Positions 2,582 to 11,439 of a stretch of 64,000 bases of DNA are shown piece by piece. The position numbers and the translations under genes are program-made. The notes below the pieces were generated by a model, which was not told where the DNA came from, did no database searches, and worked only from the letters and a program-made list of their open reading frames with translations. The number at the start of each line of letters is the position of its first letter. Position 1 is the stretch's first letter. Source of the DNA: Burkholderiales bacterium (GTDB lineage: Bacteria; Pseudomonadota; Gammaproteobacteria; Burkholderiales; JABEVD01). The stretch is from NCBI GenBank assembly GCA_019753155.1, contig JAIELG010000016.1, positions 1-64,000 on the forward strand, in the 5' to 3' direction.

Positions 2582-3508
2582 ATGATTTCTGAAGAAGAGA
2601 CCTTGCTTCCTGAAGAGGTTCCCGTCGAGGAAACGCCCTCCCAGCATGCGGATGATCCTGTATTCGATGCTATCCAGATTTATTTCAACGAGATCAGAAA
2701 AAAACCGCTGCTGACTGCGGATGAGGAATTGAAGCTGACCCGGCTCGTGAAACAGGGCGACTTCGAGGCGCGTCAGAAAATGATCGAGCGCAATCTGAGG
2801 CTGGTGGTGAAGATTGCGCGGCATTATGTCAACCGGGGAGTGGCTTTGCTCGATCTTATCGAAGAAGGCAACCTGGGGTTGATCCATGCGCTTGAAAAAT
2901 TCGATCCGGAGTTGGGATTTCGCTTCTCGACCTATGCCACCTGGTGGATCAGGCAAAACATCGAACGTGCGATCATGAACCATTCGAGAACCATCCGCCT
3001 TCCCGTTCATGTGGTGAAGGATATCAACATCATTCTGCGCGCGATTCATGAACTCGAGTCGCATGGAGGAGACTCGGGTGTGGACAGGATTGCTCACAAG
3101 ACAGGCATGAGCGTGGCAGATGTGAGATGGGTGCTGCAGCAGAACGAGAAAACGCTGTCGCTGGATGCGCCGCTCGATATCGATCCCATGCTTTCCATAG
3201 GGGAGTCGATCCCGGATGACCACAACCTTGCACCCGACATGCTCATGGAGAACTCGGAAATGGAAAGGCTGGTGGGAGAATGGATGGGACGACTCACTGA
3301 AAAGCACAGGCTGGTTATCGAACGGCGCTACGGATTCAACGGCTACGATATTTCGACGCTCGACCAGATCGCCCAAAGCATGGAATTGACTCGCGAGCGA
3401 ATCCGCCAGATACAGAGCGAAGCGCTGCAGGAACTGCGCAGTTTGCTCTCGCGGCTGGAAATTTCCCAGGAAATGCTGATCCCCGGGAATTTTCCAGCAG
3501 AATACTGA
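2582..3508 (+). CDS. rpoS: RNA polymerase sigma factor RpoS (sigma-38 type)
   Basis: A group 2 sigma-70 family factor of 308 residues that directs RNA polymerase to stationary-phase and general-stress promoters. Region 1.2 starts near residue 25 (DPVFDAIQIYFNEI). Region 2 holds NLRLVVKIARHYVNRG and GFRFSTYATWWIRQ (about 71-124), and region 4.2 carries the helix-turn-helix ending in LTRERIRQIQSEAL near the C terminus. There is no long region 1.1, which favours RpoS over RpoD. The start is supported by AAGGA at 2571-2575. Unlike in many proteobacteria, nlpD is not next door; feoAB diverges upstream. It converges with the outer-membrane gene, leaving 6 bases between the stops. Confidence 0.9.
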   Translation: MISEEETLLPEEVPVEETPSQHADDPVFDAIQIYFNEIRKKPLLTADEELKLTRLVKQGDFEARQKMIERNLRLVVKIARHYVNRGVALLDLIEEGNLGLIHALEKFDPELGFRFSTYATWWIRQNIERAIMNHSRTIRLPVHVVKDINIILRAIHELESHGGDSGVDRIAHKTGMSVADVRWVLQQNEKTLSLDAPLDIDPMLSIGESIPDDHNLAPDMLMENSEMERLVGEWMGRLTEKHRLVIERRYGFNGYDISTLDQIAQSMELTRERIRQIQSEALQELRSLLSRLEISQEMLIPGNFPAEY

Positions 3509-3514
3509 GGTTCC

Positions 3515-4060
3515 TTAGAACGCGTAGATCACGCCGGCAGACCAGACATTCGAATTGAAGTTGGTGGTGTTGCCTGCATTGGTCTTCACGGCAGAACCGT
3601 AGCGATCCCACCCGAGGCGTATGCCGATCTGCGGCGAGACATTATACTGAACGCCCAGGCCGTAGGTTGCTGCAGTGCGGCTTGCGCCCAGGTAGGTGCC
3701 GGTTGCGTCGGAGATTTTGGTCTTCGAGCTGGCGAATCCAAGCTTGCCGTACAGCGAGAAGCTGTCGGACAGGGGCAGCGTGCCAATTGCAGCGACCCCG
3801 AATGCATCGCCTTTGCCGCTCATCGTTGCGGTGGTGAATTTTCCGACGCCGGTGAATTGCGCTTCCACGCCGAAGTTCTTGTCGAACTGGTAGCCGACCA
3901 AACCGCCGTAAACGGAGTCGGATGATTTCGTCAGGACTGCATTACCGAAATTGCTGATCTTGGCGTTTCCCAGCGTGCCTCCGATGTAAAAGCCGCTCTC
4001 GGCAAAGGCGGGTGTCGCAACGGCAACCGAGAGAAGTGCGGCAGCAAGAGTCTTTTTCAT
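3515..4060 (-). CDS. Outer-membrane beta-barrel protein, OmpA/opacity type
   Basis: An exported 181-residue protein with a clear signal peptide (MKKTLAAALLSVAVATPAFA, cleavage after AFA near residue 20). Alternating hydrophobic strands follow, and the protein ends in ...AGVIYAF, the terminal phenylalanine typical of BAM-assembled barrels. Size and the FYIGGTLGNAKIS and VGYQFDKNFGVEAQF segments fit an eight-stranded OmpA-like or opacity-type barrel. A good Shine-Dalgarno (GAAGGAAG in the sense direction) precedes the ATG. The gene stands alone, convergent with rpoS. No specific function can be assigned. Confidence 0.85.
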   Translation of the reverse strand: MKKTLAAALLSVAVATPAFAESGFYIGGTLGNAKISNFGNAVLTKSSDSVYGGLVGYQFDKNFGVEAQFTGVGKFTTATMSGKGDAFGVAAIGTLPLSDSFSLYGKLGFASSKTKISDATGTYLGASRTAATYGLGVQYNVSPQIGIRLGWDRYGSAVKTNAGNTTNFNSNVWSAGVIYAF

Positions 4061-4211
4061 GTTCTACTTCCTTCAAGTGTTGATAAACGGGTATGCAACG
4101 AGTTTGATGCGCCAATGTAAACAGTCAAAGCATGTACGAGAGGCGTCGAAGCGAATGGTAATGCAAAAATATTAGCACAAAATTAAGGAAAAATGACAGG
4201 CGGTGGCGCGG

Positions 4212-4697
4212 CTATTTTTTTTGGAAAAGCGCGAGATACTTTCCATAGCCTGCTTTTTCCAGGTCATCGACAGGGATGAAACGCAGTGCAGCGGAATTGA
4301 TGCAATAACGCTTGCCGGTCGGAAGCGGGCCGTCATCGAAAACATGTCCCAGGTGAGAGTTTCCGTGTCTGCTGCGAACTTCCGTTCTTGCCATGAAAAG
4401 CGAGCGGTCCGTCCTGAGGGTGATGTCCTCGGGTTCCAATGGCTTTGTGAAGCTGGGCCAGCCCGTTCCGGAGTCGAACTTGTCAAGCGAACTGAAAAGC
4501 GGTTCTCCCGAGACGACATCGACATAAATCCCCGCCCTTTCATTGTTCCAGTAGGCATTGTGAAACGGCGGCTCGGTCCCGTTTTCCTGGGTGACGTAAT
4601 ATTGCTCGGAATCGAGGCGTTTTTTCAGTTGATCGTGTTCACTGCCCATGGCTGCGCCTCCGCAAAACAATAACAATACAGGAATGAGTTTTTTCAT
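4212..4697 (-). CDS. msrB: Secreted peptide-methionine (R)-S-oxide reductase MsrB
   Basis: Reduces methionine-R-sulfoxide in proteins. The MsrB core is visible as [10 protein letters not shown] (around residues 74-83), [11 protein letters not shown] (114-124) and the catalytic [11 protein letters not shown] with Cys132. An N-terminal hydrophobic leader ([18 protein letters not shown]) suggests export to the periplasm. The two CxxC zinc pairs of many MsrB proteins are absent ([11 protein letters not shown] replaces the first), and the only other cysteine, Cys12, is in the leader, so the mature enzyme would be a one-cysteine form. It sits 4 bases after the molybdoenzyme gene in what looks like a three-gene operon. 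Confidence 0.92.
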
Positions 4698-6159: not shown

Positions 6160-7596
6160 ATGCACGAGACATCCACGCTCGATCCTTCCGATTGGAACGC
6201 GTTCAGAAAAGAGGCGCATCGAATGCTCGACGACATGATCGATTACCAGGAGCATATTCGACAGCGGCCGGTCTGGCAGCCCATTCCGGGGGACGTGCGC
6301 GATCTTTTCAGGGAGGCTCTCCCCAGGCAGGCGTCCGATCTTGCGAGCGTGCATGAAATTTTCATGCACGACGTGCTTCCCTTTGCAGTGGGCAATGCCC
6401 ATCCCGGTTTCATGGGCTGGGTTCATGGCGGAGGAACGCCCATAGGCATGCTCGCGGAGATGCTTGCTGCGGGATTGAATGCGAACCTGGGCGGGCGCGA
6501 CCAGATGCCTGTCGAGGTCGAGAAGCAGGTGCTCGCCTGGGCGCGCGAACTGTTCGGTTTTCCCGAAACTTCCAGCGGTCTCTTCGTGACCGGCACATCC
6601 ATGGCGAATTTCATCTCGCTGCTTGTCGCACGTACCGCGTATCTGGGGACGGATGTCAGACGGCAAGGCGTACATGGCAGCAGGCTTGCGGCTTACGCTT
6701 CAGAGGGCGCTCACGGCAGCATCGCCCAGGCGCTCGATCTTTCCGGGCTGGGCGTCGATGCGCTCAGGATCATTCCCGTGAACGGGCGCTTCGAAATGGA
6801 TGTCGTGGCGCTCGATGCTGCGATCAAAAAAGACAGGGCGTCGGGATATGTTCCGTTTTTTGTCGCCGGCACTGCAGGAAGCGTGGATACGGGTGCAATC
6901 GATGCACTCGATGCGATCGCGGATATCGCAAGGCGGGAGCAGATCTGGTTTCATGTTGACGGCGCCTATGGCGCGCTCGCCAGGCTCGCCCCCGGTATTG
7001 CGCCCCGTCTCGATGGAATCGAGCGTGCGGATTCCATCGCATTCGATTTTCACAAGTGGGCTCAGGTGCCCTACGATGCAGGATTCGTCCTGGTGCGGGA
7101 CGGCGAGCTTCACCTTCGCACGTTCGCTTCCAGCGCATCCTATTTGAGACGGGAAAGCAGGGCGCTTGCCGCAGGTTCCCCCTGGCCGTGCGATTTCGGC
7201 CCGGATCTCTCCAGGGGGTTCAGAGCGCTCAAGACCTGGTTCACGATCAAGGTGTTCGGCGCGGAAAAGCTGGGGCAGGTCATTGCCGGAACCTGCGATC
7301 TCGCCCTTTACCTGAAAGATCGCATAGACGCGTCCCCCCAACTTGAACTTCTTGCGCCGGTTTCGCTCAATATAGTCTGTTACCGGTACAGATGCGAACA
7401 TGCGGACAGGGTGAATGCGGACATCGTGGCGAAGCTGCAGGCTTCCGGAATCGCCGCGCCTTCGACAACCGTGATAAACGGAAATCTTGCCATAAGGGCG
7501 GCAATAGTCAATCATCGCACTGGGCGGGACGATATCGATGCCCTGGTCAATGCCTCAATCGCTTACGGACAGTCGATCACTCAAAATGAATCCTGA
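6160..7596 (+). CDS. PLP-dependent group II decarboxylase (aromatic amino acid/glutamate type)
   Basis: A fold-type I PLP enzyme of 478 residues in the group II decarboxylase family. Visible motifs are GNAHPGFMGWVHGGG (78-92), FVTGTSMANF (141-150), HVDGAYG (264-270, the Asp that contacts the pyridine nitrogen) and FDFHKWA with the Schiff-base Lys298. Shine-Dalgarno GAGGG is at 6149-6153. Its last 11 bases overlap the ATP-grasp gene. Family knowledge predicts an amino acid to amine reaction and CO2 release; the substrate (aromatic amino acid, aspartate or a larger compound) cannot be read from the sequence. The tight packing with an ATP-grasp ligase and a second PLP enzyme suggests that it feeds an amine into a ligation step. 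Confidence 0.88.
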   Translation: MHETSTLDPSDWNAFRKEAHRMLDDMIDYQEHIRQRPVWQPIPGDVRDLFREALPRQASDLASVHEIFMHDVLPFAVGNAHPGFMGWVHGGGTPIGMLAEMLAAGLNANLGGRDQMPVEVEKQVLAWARELFGFPETSSGLFVTGTSMANFISLLVARTAYLGTDVRRQGVHGSRLAAYASEGAHGSIAQALDLSGLGVDALRIIPVNGRFEMDVVALDAAIKKDRASGYVPFFVAGTAGSVDTGAIDALDAIADIARREQIWFHVDGAYGALARLAPGIAPRLDGIERADSIAFDFHKWAQVPYDAGFVLVRDGELHLRTFASSASYLRRESRALAAGSPWPCDFGPDLSRGFRALKTWFTIKVFGAEKLGQVIAGTCDLALYLKDRIDASPQLELLAPVSLNIVCYRYRCEHADRVNADIVAKLQASGIAAPSTTVINGNLAIRAAIVNHRTGRDDIDALVNASIAYGQSITQNES

Positions 7597-8767
7597 AATC
7601 TGCAATGACGAAAAACTCATCGGTCTTGCCAGACTGATGAAGATGGCGTTCGACGGCATCAATCTCGCGCCGATAGGGGATGCGCTGATTGCGCGGGTGG
7701 AGAAGAATCCGCTGGACGCAGAAGCGCTCATGGATCTTTCCACTGTTTTGCAGCTCAAGTTCATGCCCGAAGTCGCGCTCGACGTGCAAAGCCAGGCTCT
7801 TGATATCAAAACCCTGTACCATTTGCCGGCAAGCGGGGAAGAAAAAATCAGGCTGCTTGCCATCATGGCGCCTGGAAATTTGATGACGAATGCGCCGCTC
7901 GAATTTCTGGTCGAAGGATCGGACATATCGCTTTACATGCTTTATGTCTCGCCTGATTTGCAGCTACCTCCCGCCCTGCCTGAGCACGATCTGCTCTTCG
8001 TCGCAGTGGGCGAATCGGACCGCAGCCGTCCCGTTCTGGAAGAACTCGGTCGGGCCGTAAAGACATGGCCGCGCCCGGTTCTGAACCTTCCGGACAATAT
8101 TCTCGCAACTTCCAGGGAAGCGGCCCCAATCCGCCTCGCGTCCCTTGCCGGGGTCGATATGCCGCTCTCCGTCCGGGTGGAGCGGGCCGCTCTCGAAGCA
8201 ATCGGGCAGTTCCCCGTGATTGCAAGACCCGTCGACTCCCATGCCGGGCAGGGGCTTGCAAGAATCGACAGCCCTGAAGACATCCGGGCTTATCTGAGCG
8301 CGCGTCAGGAGCAGGAATTTTTTGTCGCGAAGTTCGTCGAATACAGGAGCCGCGACGGCCTTTACAGGAAATATCGCATCGTTCTCATAGACGGCAAGCC
8401 TTATGCCTGCCACATGGGGATATCGGAACACTGGATGATCCATTATGCCAATGCGGGCATGGACGAGAGCGCGGAAAAGCGGGAAGAGGAGGCGCGTTTC
8501 ATGGCTGGTTTCGACGGCGATTTCGCCAGGCGCCATTACGATGCATTGAGCGGCATTGACGAGCGCATGGGACTCGATTATCTCGTCATCGATTGCGCCG
8601 AGACTCAGGATGGCAGGCTGCTGATTTTCGAGGTCGATATCGGGGCGGTCATCCACGCCATGGATCCGGTCGATGTTTTTCCGTACAAGGCGCCCCAGAT
8701 GAGGCAGGTTTTTTCCGCATTTCGCAACATGCTCGCCAGAGCGGCCCATGAATACGAGAGCGCTTAA
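7586..8767 (+). CDS. ATP-grasp ligase with TPR-like N terminus
   Basis: A 393-residue protein. Residues from about 35 to 80 (LMDLSTVLQLKFMPEVALDV onward) resemble a TPR-type helical pair. The second half is an ATP-grasp core: IARPVDSHAGQGLARI (nucleotide-binding lysine replaced by arginine), FVAKFVEYRSRDG, the YRKYRIVLIDGKPY strand and a metal-binding end LLIFEVDIGAVIHAMD with EVD in place of the usual EVN. It resembles RimK/glutathione-synthetase-type ligases, which join a carboxylate to an amine through an acyl phosphate. The ATG at 7586 was chosen because an in-frame start further upstream lies inside the decarboxylase. It overlaps that gene by 11 bases and the next by 20, so translation is probably coupled. 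Confidence 0.75.
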   Translation: MNPEICNDEKLIGLARLMKMAFDGINLAPIGDALIARVEKNPLDAEALMDLSTVLQLKFMPEVALDVQSQALDIKTLYHLPASGEEKIRLLAIMAPGNLMTNAPLEFLVEGSDISLYMLYVSPDLQLPPALPEHDLLFVAVGESDRSRPVLEELGRAVKTWPRPVLNLPDNILATSREAAPIRLASLAGVDMPLSVRVERAALEAIGQFPVIARPVDSHAGQGLARIDSPEDIRAYLSARQEQEFFVAKFVEYRSRDGLYRKYRIVLIDGKPYACHMGISEHWMIHYANAGMDESAEKREEEARFMAGFDGDFARRHYDALSGIDERMGLDYLVIDCAETQDGRLLIFEVDIGAVIHAMDPVDVFPYKAPQMRQVFSAFRNMLARAAHEYESA

Positions 8768-10181
8768 GATCGTCCGCCGCCTCGCCCTCGCCGATACCCG
8801 AGCGCTTCTGGCCGAAGGCGGAGATGCCAGGATTGCGCTCGAATCCGGCAGAAATGAATATGGGTGCAGGCCTTATCCGGACCCTGACCTTGCCGCATTG
8901 GGTTCTTCCACTGCATCCACCATTTCGGAATCGGGATATGCCGCAGCGGAGGCGCTGCGCGAAAAAATCCTCGCAAATCCGGACGAAGCAGGCGGAGAGT
9001 TCGATCGCATCAGGGATGAGCTTTCCCGGTTATGCGGCATCTCAGACCTGGAAGGACTCGAAATCGTCTTCGCTGCTTCCGGCACCGATGTCCACCTGAT
9101 CGCGTCCCAGATCGTCAAGCCCGCATGCGCCGTGATGGTGGATGGGACGGAAACTGGAAGGGGCGTCCCTTCCGCGCTTTCGGGACGCCACTTCAGCACG
9201 AGAACTGCGTTTTGCGGGAAAGTGATGCCCGGGATGCCGCTCTCCGAGGCCATGGCAGTCATGAACGTGCGAATCCGCGCACCCGACGGCATGCCGCGGG
9301 ATTGCGGCGAGATCGATATGGATGTCGTTGCCTGTGTCGAATCGGTGGTGGAAAAAGGCGGAAAAGTTCTCCTCGTGCTGACGGACGTTTCCAAGACGGG
9401 GATGATCGCCCCGAGTCTCTCCTGCGCAATCGAACTCAGGAAGAAATTTCCCGCTTCAGTCGAAGTGCTCGTGGATGCCTGTCAGTTCAGGATGTCGCCT
9501 TCCACCTTGAGGGCCTACCTCGAACAAGGCTTCATGGTGGCCCTCACAGGATCGAAATTTCTGACCGGCCCCACCTTTTCCGGCGCGCTGCTCATGCCGC
9601 AGGCGCCGCGATGGGAAATCCCGAAGACACTGAAATCCTATTCTTCCAGATACGAGTGGCCTGAAGGCATGCGCTCCGATTGGCTGGGGGATGACATCAA
9701 TTTCGGACTCCTGCTGCGCTGGGAAGCGGCGCTTGCCGAACTGCGGGCGTTTTGCAAGGTGCCGGAAGAAAAGGCGGGGAAATTCCTGCTCGAATTCGCC
9801 CAAGAGATCGGGCAGCGCCTCGAAGAGGATGCCCGTTTCGAATCCCTGCCGGTGCCTCCACTGGATCGCCGTGTTCTTGTGCCGGCACCCGGATGGGATT
9901 CCATCCAGACGATATTTCCCTTCATGCTCAAAAGAGGGGGGCTGCTTTTGGGGCTGGAAGAGGCTAAGGAAATTCATGTGCAGCTTCAGGAAGGTCGTTC
10001 CGGTATCGACGCCATTGCAGGATCGCGCTACAGCCTGGGGCAGCCCGTTTCCTGCGCAGGAAAGGGCGCGCTTCGCCTTTGCGCGAGCGCGAGGCTCGTC
10101 GTCGAGGGCGCTCTAAACGGCGATGCGGTCATCAATCGTGCGCTCGCCGCGCTCGACAGGGTAGCGATGCTTCTGGATTAA
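8748..10181 (+). CDS. PLP-dependent enzyme, aminotransferase class V-like
   Basis: A 477-residue protein with fold-type I PLP landmarks. FAASGTD (108-114) is the phosphate/PLP cradle, VLVDACQFRMS (240-250) carries Asp243, and TGSKFLTGPTFSG (268-279) has the likely Schiff-base Lys270. The layout is closest to class V aminotransferases and cysteine desulfurases, but no cysteine-loop signature or other subfamily mark is recognised. The start lies inside the ATP-grasp gene (20-base overlap), so this is the third gene of a coupled set. I do not know its substrate. Its position suggests that it handles the same metabolite as the decarboxylase and the ligase. Confidence 0.72.
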   Translation: MNTRALKIVRRLALADTRALLAEGGDARIALESGRNEYGCRPYPDPDLAALGSSTASTISESGYAAAEALREKILANPDEAGGEFDRIRDELSRLCGISDLEGLEIVFAASGTDVHLIASQIVKPACAVMVDGTETGRGVPSALSGRHFSTRTAFCGKVMPGMPLSEAMAVMNVRIRAPDGMPRDCGEIDMDVVACVESVVEKGGKVLLVLTDVSKTGMIAPSLSCAIELRKKFPASVEVLVDACQFRMSPSTLRAYLEQGFMVALTGSKFLTGPTFSGALLMPQAPRWEIPKTLKSYSSRYEWPEGMRSDWLGDDINFGLLLRWEAALAELRAFCKVPEEKAGKFLLEFAQEIGQRLEEDARFESLPVPPLDRRVLVPAPGWDSIQTIFPFMLKRGGLLLGLEEAKEIHVQLQEGRSGIDAIAGSRYSLGQPVSCAGKGALRLCASARLVVEGALNGDAVINRALAALDRVAMLLD

Positions 10182-10202
10182 TCCCACGCATGGATGATGA
10201 TT

Positions 10203-10988
10203 ATGTGTCAACTGCTCGGCATGAATTGCAACGTACCCACGGACATCTGCTTTTCCTTCACCGGTTTCCAGAAGCGCGGCGGGGGGACGGACGTGCACGG
10301 CGATGGCTGGGGGATCGCCTTCTTCGAAGGCAAGGGTGTGAGAATGTTCGTCGATCCGCAGCCTTCGGCACAGTCGCCCGTCGCCGAGTTCGTGCGGAAT
10401 TATCCGATCAGATCGCTCAATGTCATCGCGCACATACGCAAGGCGACCCAGGGCAGGGTGGCCCTGGAAAACACGCATCCTTTCATGCGCGAACTTTGGG
10501 GCCGATACTGGATATTCGCCCATAACGGCAATCTTCCGGGTTTTCAGCCGGATCTGGACGGCATGTTCATTCCGGTCGGGGACACCGACAGCGAGCGCGT
10601 GTTCTGCTGGATGCTGCAAAGATTGCGCCGGCGCTTCGGCGCGCAGGCTCCGGAGCGCGATGCGCTTTTCGGGGCGTTGCACGGTCTCAGTTGCGAACTT
10701 GCGGATTTGGGAATATTCAATTATCTCCTCTCCAACGGAGACTGTCTCGTCGCGCACTGCTCGACAGAGCTTGCCTATATCGTGCGACAGTCGCCTTTTG
10801 CCGTGGCGCATCTTAAGGACGAGGATGTGACGGTGGATTTTTCCGATGTGACCACATCGAAGGATCGCGTCGCCGTGATCGCCACGGCTCCCCTGACCGA
10901 CAATGAATCCTGGACGCTCATGAAGCCCGGTACCTTGCTGATGTTCCATGACGGCGAGGTGGAAGCGCATCGCGATACCTGTTGCTGA
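10203..10988 (+). CDS. yafJ: Class II glutamine amidotransferase, YafJ family
   Basis: An Ntn-hydrolase of 261 residues. The start was placed at 10203 so that Cys2 follows the initiator Met (MCQLLGMNCNVPTDICFSFT); two in-frame ATGs six and nine bases upstream would bury the nucleophile. The sequence tracks the E. coli YafJ family: KRGGGTDVHGDGWGI, VVAHIRK-like IAHIRKATQG, ENTHPFMREL and FAHNG-type IFAHNGNLPGF. The family is related to the EgtC hydrolase of ergothioneine synthesis, but YafJ's own substrate is not established. It follows the PLP gene by 21 bases on the same strand, so it may be part of that operon, though yafJ is also common on its own. Confidence 0.88.
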   Translation: MCQLLGMNCNVPTDICFSFTGFQKRGGGTDVHGDGWGIAFFEGKGVRMFVDPQPSAQSPVAEFVRNYPIRSLNVIAHIRKATQGRVALENTHPFMRELWGRYWIFAHNGNLPGFQPDLDGMFIPVGDTDSERVFCWMLQRLRRRFGAQAPERDALFGALHGLSCELADLGIFNYLLSNGDCLVAHCSTELAYIVRQSPFAVAHLKDEDVTVDFSDVTTSKDRVAVIATAPLTDNESWTLMKPGTLLMFHDGEVEAHRDTCC

Positions 10989-11016: not shown

Positions 11017-11439
11017 ATGACGAGTAATGCCCTCAGCAAGAAAGAATTCGAAACCCTGTCCGATTTCCGCTACCAGTTGCGACGCTTCCTGCGTTTTAGC
11101 GAGGAGGCGGTGCATAGCCATGGACTCACCCATCTTCAATATCTGCTGATTCTCCATGTCAAAGGCTATCAGGGCAGGGAATGGGCGACCATAGGGGAAC
11201 TTGCCGAGAAGCTTCAGGCCCATCACCATGGGGTGGTATCCCTGGTCTCCCGCTGCGAGAAACTCGGACTCGTTTACCGACAGCAGGGCAGGACCGACAA
11301 GCGCGAAGTCGAAGTGCATCTCACCCCGGAAGGCAACAGGATGGTGGAGAAGCTTGCCCGCCTGCATCGGGATGAATTGGTCGGCTCGACCGGCAGGTTC
11401 AGGGTGCCGGGCGCGGATGAGCTGCGCAAGGGGGACTAG
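11017..11439 (+). CDS. MarR-family transcriptional regulator
   Basis: A 140-residue winged-helix protein. The DNA-binding core is recognisable as GLTHLQYLLILHVKG, TIGELAEKLQAHHHGVVSLV (recognition helix), then the wing GLVYRQQGRTDKREVEVHLT with the D-x-R signature of MarR proteins. Such factors usually respond to small phenolic or amphipathic ligands. It begins 28 bases after the yafJ gene on the same strand, so it may be the local regulator of the decarboxylase/ATP-grasp/PLP cluster. No palindromic operator was found with confidence. Confidence 0.88.
   Translation: MTSNALSKKEFETLSDFRYQLRRFLRFSEEAVHSHGLTHLQYLLILHVKGYQGREWATIGELAEKLQAHHHGVVSLVSRCEKLGLVYRQQGRTDKREVEVHLTPEGNRMVEKLARLHRDELVGSTGRFRVPGADELRKGD

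Follow-up and report, generated by a model that had tools for sequence, protein, structure and literature searches.

What might a decarboxylase, an ATP-grasp ligase and a second enzyme dependent on pyridoxal phosphate (PLP) accomplish together when their genes overlap head-to-tail on one strand? The question is raised by a stretch of 64,000 nucleotides from a Burkholderiales bacterium (GCA_019753155.1, contig JAIELG010000016.1, positions 1–64,000 of the forward strand; the window, in what follows), in which the three open reading frames (ORFs) overlap by 11 and 20 bases, as a first-pass annotation of the letters had described. They are named DC, GRASP and PLP3 here, and together are called the cassette:

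6160–7596, forward strand: DC, a group II PLP-dependent amino acid decarboxylase of 478 residues (PF00282, 216.1 bits)
7586–8767, forward strand: GRASP, a RimK/LysX/ArgX-like ATP-grasp ligase with an N-terminus resembling tetratricopeptide repeats (TPR) (AlphaFold2 fold, conserved acids)
8748–10181, forward strand: PLP3, a class-V-like, fold-type-I PLP enzyme of 477 residues without a Pfam family (predicted fold, conserved residues)

Our answer, which is tentative and held at a little less than even confidence, is that DC, GRASP and PLP3 act as one module in which an ATP-grasp amide ligase is fed by PLP enzymes and modifies a flagellar protein. It draws on the observed linkage of the genes and their fusions, on catalytic residues and predicted folds, and on the flagellar genes found near many of the cassettes.

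Relatives of PLP3 were found in 25 of 200 genomes sampled from the order and, among 274 sampled genomes of the class, in the window's own only. At 22 of the 24 other order loci (loci and genomes carry our L and G numbers), GRASP and DC lie beside PLP3; the remaining two have PLP3 alone (L034) and two GRASP genes with no DC (L043). The two GRASP genes of L043 lie on opposite strands beside PLP3, an arrangement also seen in L103, where DC is likewise absent. When named bacterial genomes were scanned with a GRASP alignment, at least 567 relatives came up, of which the best 80 were kept, a set biased to sequences near that of the window. All three genes are present at 57 of these best 80 loci, DC and GRASP at 16, GRASP and PLP3 at one, and GRASP alone at six. 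The gene order is DC-GRASP-PLP3 in 57 of the 57 three-gene loci, among which some genes are truncated at contig ends (e.g., L067, L070, L083, L102 and L120) and one PLP3 match is partial (L071); four of the 16 DC and GRASP loci (L068, L074, L075 and L100) end 727 to 1864 nucleotides past GRASP. The organisms include Sulfuricella, Gallionella, Methylobacter, Undibacterium, Variovorax, Cupriavidus and Janthinobacterium, together with metagenome-assembled genomes (MAGs) labelled Bryobacterales or Acidobacteriota.

The commonest spacing between DC and GRASP is −4 nucleotides (24 of 73 loci, with starts chosen by script). DC and GRASP are joined in one frame in L080, L121, L123 and L033, and GRASP and PLP3 in L063 and L065; many of the loci come from MAGs, and the fusions may in part be assembly or sequencing errors. 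Outside the class, eight three-gene loci were found, which show the usual order in L165, L166, L167 and L169, the order PLP3-GRASP-DC in L170, L187 and L188, and the order GRASP-PLP3-DC in L172; the last of these is also seen on a Rhizobium tumorigenes plasmid (L235). That the genes stay linked even where their order has changed argues strongly that they work together, and DC, GRASP and PLP3 are read here as one functional module. The first-pass annotation had proposed a joint pathway for the three genes and had asked whether they are neighbours only in this lineage. They are neighbours far beyond it, and the linkage at most of the best 80 loci, the fusions and the reordered loci all support the proposal. 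Annotated plasmid copies are named hypothetical protein, TPR-containing protein or RimK family, and a literature search, beyond whose reach lay most subscription papers and preprints, found no account of the three-gene set.

The cassette is associated with flagellar genes. The screen used 28 core flagellar and motor proteins of Escherichia coli as tblastn queries (E ≤ 1e-6) within 8 kb of GRASP. It covered 128 loci with GRASP, including the window, which was entered with its first 20 kb; L034 was left out of the count, and deduplication at 97% GRASP nucleotide identity reduced the set to 120. A core flagellar gene lies near GRASP at 39 of these 120 unique loci, and at 33 of 100 when deduplication is made at 80% identity. 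Of the 56 loci with long flanks (7 kb or more on each side), 25 have a flagellar gene, compared with 1 of 40 windows of 17 kb drawn at random from eight genomes with long contigs (Fisher, 1.1e-6), and the single positive control window overlaps a cassette neighbourhood. The screen undercounts, having missed FliK- and FlhB-type genes at L178 that were found with Pfam. A later set of 16 GRASP loci (second copies and forms lacking PLP3) is not part of the 120, and two of the 16 have a core flagellar gene. By form, and with 11 of the later loci added to those with long flanks, flagellar genes accompany 22 of 45 full cassettes, 3 of 9 DC and GRASP pairs, and 2 of 13 GRASP genes without DC or PLP3; since the enrichment is found mostly at full cassettes, the flagellar association belongs mainly to the cassette.

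The flagellar neighbours vary from locus to locus (fliC/fliD/fliS, fliE/fliF, flgA/flgB, motB/flhA, fliM/fliN/fliP or flgK/flgL), and in 6–8 Mb genomes of another class they are flgK/flgE. Because the neighbours differ, a single inherited arrangement does not account for the association. Pfam confirmed ten neighbour genes as members of the FliK, FlhB, FliR, flagellin, FliD, YcgR, FlgK and FliF families, some of which adjoin the SerC form of GRASP described below and not the cassette. On a Cupriavidus plasmid (L236, 8956–10205), a GRASP relative is split into two annotated ORFs, and its surroundings hold a lone flgB, glycosyltransferase genes and metal-resistance genes. The flagellar link of the cassette, which the first-pass annotation did not foresee, suggests another biological role than the one proposed there.

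The same association appears at the level of whole genomes, with the lists of GRASP and flagellin matched by eye. In the order sample, flagellin was found in 134 genomes and GRASP (E ≤ 1e-60) in 33; flagellin is present in 31 of the 33 genomes with GRASP and in 103 of the 167 without it (p = 9.6e-5), or, counted by genus, in 19 of 19 and 58 of 89 (p = 7.7e-4). In a sample of 398 genomes from the phylum, the corresponding figures are 30 of 32 (GRASP at E ≤ 1e-20; six of the 30 flagellin matches are weak, with E values of 1e-11 to 1e-12) and 291 of 366 (p = 0.033), a weak difference because most of that sample has flagellin. Of the two order exceptions, G461 has no flagellin match but carries FliF and an flg operon beside the cassette, and the other is G433, described below. 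The phylum exceptions are G704, which is 68% complete, and G731, whose cassette lies near FlgK.

GRASP has no Pfam match at 0.01, and its NCBIfam matches to RimK/LysX models are weak (TIGR00768, E = 3e-5; 23.5 bits, compared with a rimK_fam cut-off of 143.4). As that cut-off is missed, GRASP is described here as working like RimK and is not filed as RimK. The AlphaFold2 model has a mean pLDDT of 95.8, and its ligase part (approximately residues 88–393, DNA 7847–8764) adopts an ATP-grasp fold, with VIA matches to LysX (3vpd; Z 18.4, rmsd 3.9, 260 residues aligned), ArgX (3vpb; Z 18.3) and RimK (5zct; Z 18.2), followed by the small-molecule ligases glutathione synthetase (1gsa; Z 16.4), Ddl-type enzymes (Z 15 to 16, up to 15.9) and DcsG (Z 15.3). 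LysX and ArgX couple amino acids to a carrier protein, and RimK couples them to ribosomal protein S6; the titles of entries 3vpb and 5zk6 mention LysW and RpsF. The fold alignments begin near residue 88 and barely cover the TPR-like part, which spans approximately residues 28–74 (DNA 7667–7807) and shows helices at 28–40, 45–57 and 61–74 in the model. TPR_12 is weakly matched by 26 of 75 GRASP members at E ≤ 1 (best, 0.00068). The N-terminus is probably protein-binding. In an alignment of the window's protein with 74 of 78 eligible sequences, Arg214, Arg264, Asp336 and Glu349 are invariant (75 of 75) and Asp351 is kept in 74 of 75. Asp336, Glu349 and Asp351 are presumably the Mg-binding acids; here and below, the roles given to conserved residues are those usual in the families or are deduced from motif position. 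The first-pass annotation had named a lack of catalytic residues in GRASP as a possible objection, which the retention of Asp336 and Glu349 throughout the alignment answers.

DC scores 216.1 bits against PF00282 (curated cut-off, 27) and is thus a group II PLP decarboxylase. His185, Asp267, Lys299 and the loop residue Tyr328 are invariant in 47 of 47 aligned sequences (the window's and 46 of 68 eligible ones), where they align with solved decarboxylases; their catalytic roles are those usual in the family, and Lys299 (7054–7056) would be the Schiff-base lysine. By sequence, the nearest solved structure is the Ruminococcus gnavus tryptophan decarboxylase (4obu). DC reaches no NCBIfam equivalog cut-off, and its best matches are a mixture of tryptophan, DOPA and diaminobutyrate decarboxylases. 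DC would convert an amino acid to an amine.

PLP3 matches nothing in Pfam or NCBIfam at 0.01. None of the 54 aligned members (the window's and 53 of 53 eligible sequences) matches Aminotran_5 (PF00266) at E ≤ 1, and Pfam as a whole gives at that threshold just eight unrelated families, with one member each. The model (mean pLDDT 90.4) has fold type I, class V. Its best structural match is the NifS-like 4ixo (VIA Z 25.7, rmsd 3.3, 339 residues aligned), the alanine-glyoxylate and 2-aminoethylphosphonate (PhnW) aminotransferases score Z 23 to 25, and the class V matches overall lie at Z 23 to 26 with 10–14% identity. Lys270, Asp243, Gln246 and the stretch Ser111-Gly112-Thr113 are invariant in 54 of 54 sequences, and Lys270 (9555–9557) is the likely Schiff-base lysine. 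A search of solved structures by sequence returned a single match, a copper ATPase at E = 0.071, which was judged to be chance. Together with the PF00282 match of DC, the predicted folds of GRASP and PLP3 bear out the enzyme classes that had been assigned from the letters alone.

In Sulfuricella sp. T08 (L042/L073), PLP3 continues into an S-adenosylmethionine (SAM) methyltransferase domain. A distant relative with approximately 35% identity (L034, 9322–10941), whose fetched surroundings hold neither GRASP nor DC, occurs in an order member that has flagellin. PLP3 relatives are also present in 33 rhizobial plasmid records, and the two plasmid operons that were read are nonribosomal peptide synthetase (NRPS) operons with no GRASP nearby. 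In these two (L232 and L233, 8938–10473 in each; Rhizobium and Sinorhizobium plasmids), the PLP3 relative, of approximately 39% identity, overlaps an NRPS adenylation/thioesterase gene by four bases, and a gene for a small ParB-like protein is next. The L233 operon also holds a partial match to the L-serine kinase SerK beside the PLP3 relative (36.9 bits; cut-off, 380).

GRASP has a second form. Among 36 fetched loci with GRASP and neither DC nor PLP3, a gene for a SerC-type transaminase is next on the same strand in 11 (L168, L178, L234, L244–L248 and L250–L252). The best NCBIfam model for the ten tested partners is NF009112, with eight of the ten above the cut-off; the eleventh, that of L234, scores 551 against a cut-off of 563. 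In nine of nine such genomes with a completeness of at least 98%, the partner is additional to an ordinary SerC, and G363 (85% complete) has the linked copy only. Cassette or DC-less relative aside, the window's genome (G000), G453, G287 and G431 have a single SerC each, and two genomes of another class gave no match to the NF009112-type SerC model. The L250 pair follows fliR and the L178 pair adjoins the FliK- and FlhB-type genes; near most of the pairs, no flagellar genes were seen. The substrate of the linked enzyme may differ from that of SerC. The SerC-type partner and the partial SerK match hint at O-phosphoserine, a lead too weak to commit to.

From these elements the following scheme is proposed. 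GRASP would be a carboxylate-amine ligase of the RimK/LysX type that bears a TPR-like N-terminus, and DC and PLP3 would supply it with an amine or amino-acid substrate; in the alternative two-gene form, the second SerC-type transaminase would take the place of DC and PLP3. GRASP would then spend ATP to couple this unit to a carboxylate, most likely one on a protein of the flagellar filament or hook, and would do so in the cytoplasm, ahead of export. Three points are inferred: which way the substrates flow, which amine is used and that the acceptor is a protein. A flagellar protein is the most likely acceptor, given that the nearest folds modify proteins, that the N-terminus is of a protein-binding type and that flagellar genes are associated with the cassette. 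In a looser form of the scheme, the cassette would modify a flagellar protein or make a motility-linked amide.

Several observations weigh against the modification of a flagellar protein. As many as 31 of the 56 long-flank loci (81 of 120 overall, many of them short-flanked) have no core flagellar gene within 8 kb, and the window's own cassette does not lie beside one at that distance; the window's genome, which is flagellated as judged from its gene content, has flagellin and FliF on a different contig. G433, of the window's genus, carries a full cassette (L035) and neither flagellin nor FliF. Given the count of 2 of 13 for GRASP without DC or PLP3, it may be the cassette, and not GRASP itself, that has the flagellar link. 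Even weak matches to any single TPR model reach at most 26 of 75 GRASP members, and Asp351 is absent from two relatives, L049 and L051, outside the 75-sequence set. A scan for FliA promoters upstream of DC (69 regions) is ambiguous, with more sites than in shuffled sequences but no excess over the reverse strand: sites with a score of at least 10 of 13 occur in 18.8% of the regions, 8.6% of shuffled sequences, 2.3% of stretches inside DC and 21.7% of the reverse strand. Deletion of the Shewanella ATP-grasp gene sfmE had a partial effect, with cells still motile, spreading reduced and a smaller mass shift (PMC3765264). The PLP3 relatives in NRPS operons without GRASP also belong here, as they imply that PLP3 can serve small-molecule synthesis.

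On the reverse strand of the 69 upstream regions, FliA-like sites with a score of at least 11 of 13 occur in 13%, compared with 0.6% of shuffles; they are perhaps promoters of divergent genes.

The loci that lie away from flagellar genes, the low count for GRASP without DC or PLP3, and the cassette kept in G433 would all be expected if the flagellar neighbourhood were incidental, the result of permissive insertion regions or chance co-regulation, with the cassette serving general amino acid or amine metabolism. We consider this quite unlikely in view of the 25 of 56 loci against 1 of 40 windows, the arrangements that differ between lineages and the co-occurrence with flagellin across genomes. 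It is also conceivable that the module's product is an unusual amino or acyl group that decorates a flagellin glycan, the glycan itself being assembled and transferred by other enzymes. The methyltransferase domain fused to PLP3 in Sulfuricella sp. T08 and the glycosyltransferases near the plasmid GRASP and flgB would suit such a role. On the other side stands the near absence from the order of PF01973, which we take to be Maf: it was found in 2 of 200 order genomes and not in G000, and linkage to Maf was set aside for that reason, other glycosyltransferases near the cassette not having been searched. ATP-grasp proteins do occur in flagellin-glycan loci, namely SfmE and Clostridioides difficile CDR20291_0245 (PMC3765264, PMC5207246). 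A glycan substituent is nonetheless decidedly improbable in our estimate.

The immediate downstream neighbours of the cassette had been counted by the first-pass annotation as part of its pathway:

10203–10988, forward strand: YafJ-type GATase_4 glutamine amidotransferase, a neighbour outside the module (PF13230, 418 bits)
11017–11439, forward strand: MarR-family regulator, a neighbour outside the module (PF12802, MarR_2, 42.9 bits)

The distance of 21 bases given there between PLP3 and the YafJ gene is correct when counted from the ATG at 10203, a start that puts a Cys at position 2. Neither YafJ nor MarR was found near the other 24 order loci (1e-5) or near the 80 loci (1e-8), and with no recurrence beside the cassette both were rejected as members of the pathway. 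Nor did a fourth conserved gene emerge at the 80 loci: leaving aside the cassette and the small ORFs that are apparently its shadow frames, no listed neighbour cluster exceeds 12 of 80, although most clusters are unnamed and lineage-specific transporters, regulators or glycosyltransferases could still recur. Upstream of the cassette, genes whose sequences read as an RpoS-like sigma factor and MsrB lie at 2582–4697 of the window, and the same two are upstream in five of five other members of the genus (L031, L035, L038, L039 and L053); MsrP/MsrQ-like genes intervene in the window and have no match in those five loci.

As for the product, the same annotation had pictured a joint route to a gamma-glutamyl- or peptide-like small molecule under a ligand-responsive regulator. 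Its enzyme classes and the shared pathway stand, and the gamma-glutamyl, amidotransferase and regulator part is unsupported because YafJ and MarR do not recur. An alternative in the line of that annotation is that the cassette joins an amine and an acid into a free amide or a peptide-like small molecule (for instance a signal, an osmolyte or a protective metabolite) under the same conditions as flagella. Ligases of a GRASP-like fold also make small molecules, as glutathione synthetase, Ddl-type enzymes and DcsG do, PLP3 relatives belong to NRPS operons, and a decarboxylase combined with an ATP-grasp enzyme is the logic of E-64 synthesis (PMC12568646). By itself, this alternative leaves unexplained both the flagellar adjacency in many arrangements and the TPR-like N-terminus, and we regard it as unlikely.

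The enzymes are associated with flagella, which they probably modify or serve, and there is a real chance of new chemistry. The flagellin modifications known so far are mostly sugars and lysine methylation. The most specific form of the proposal is a widespread post-translational tag of flagella not described before: guided by its TPR-like part, a RimK-like ligase would amidate a protein of the filament or hook, and the amine or (phospho)amino acid would be supplied locally by a decarboxylase and a new family of PLP enzymes, free of sugars and glycosyltransferases; we consider it possible but doubtful. If it were true, a ligase-based tag would bring a different chemistry to a major surface structure, in a cassette spread from the window's genus to methanotrophs and rhizobia, and two protein families without a role, GRASP and PLP3 (the latter without a Pfam model), would acquire one.

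The cassette can be compared with several known systems. RimK, LysX and ArgX, the best structural neighbours of GRASP, have its fold and catalytic acids in common. GRASP differs from them by the additional TPR-like N-terminus, the PLP partners, an Arg at position 214 where LysX has Lys, and a score far below the rimK_fam cut-off. The pairing of a decarboxylase with an ATP-grasp ligase is also that of MfnA and MfnD, which make a glutamyl amide in methanofuran synthesis; a methanofuran-type assignment was rejected, DC lying far below the MfnA cut-off (78.9 against 299.4 bits), with other methanofuran genes not searched. In the fungal E-64 pathway, a PLP decarboxylase gives the amine and an ATP-grasp enzyme forms the amide (PMC12568646); that product is a fungal small molecule, the pathway has an oxygenase and an amide bond synthetase, and a flagellar link cannot apply. 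In C. difficile, the ATP-grasp gene CDR20291_0245 lies beside type B flagellin glycosylation genes (PMC5207246). Caulobacter FlmG combines a TPR domain with an enzyme for flagellin modification (PMC7591256), as GRASP combines a TPR-like N-terminus with its catalytic part, but the enzyme is a glycosyltransferase in FlmG and an ATP-grasp ligase in GRASP. In Shewanella, the ATP-grasp protein SfmE, encoded in the operon sfmABCDE, contributes to flagellin modification (PMC3765264). By enzyme class, that operon resembles the cassette as a small operon with an ATP-grasp protein, whereas its other genes encode NeuB-like, thiamine-pyrophosphate-dependent, reductase and methyltransferase proteins where the cassette has PLP enzymes.

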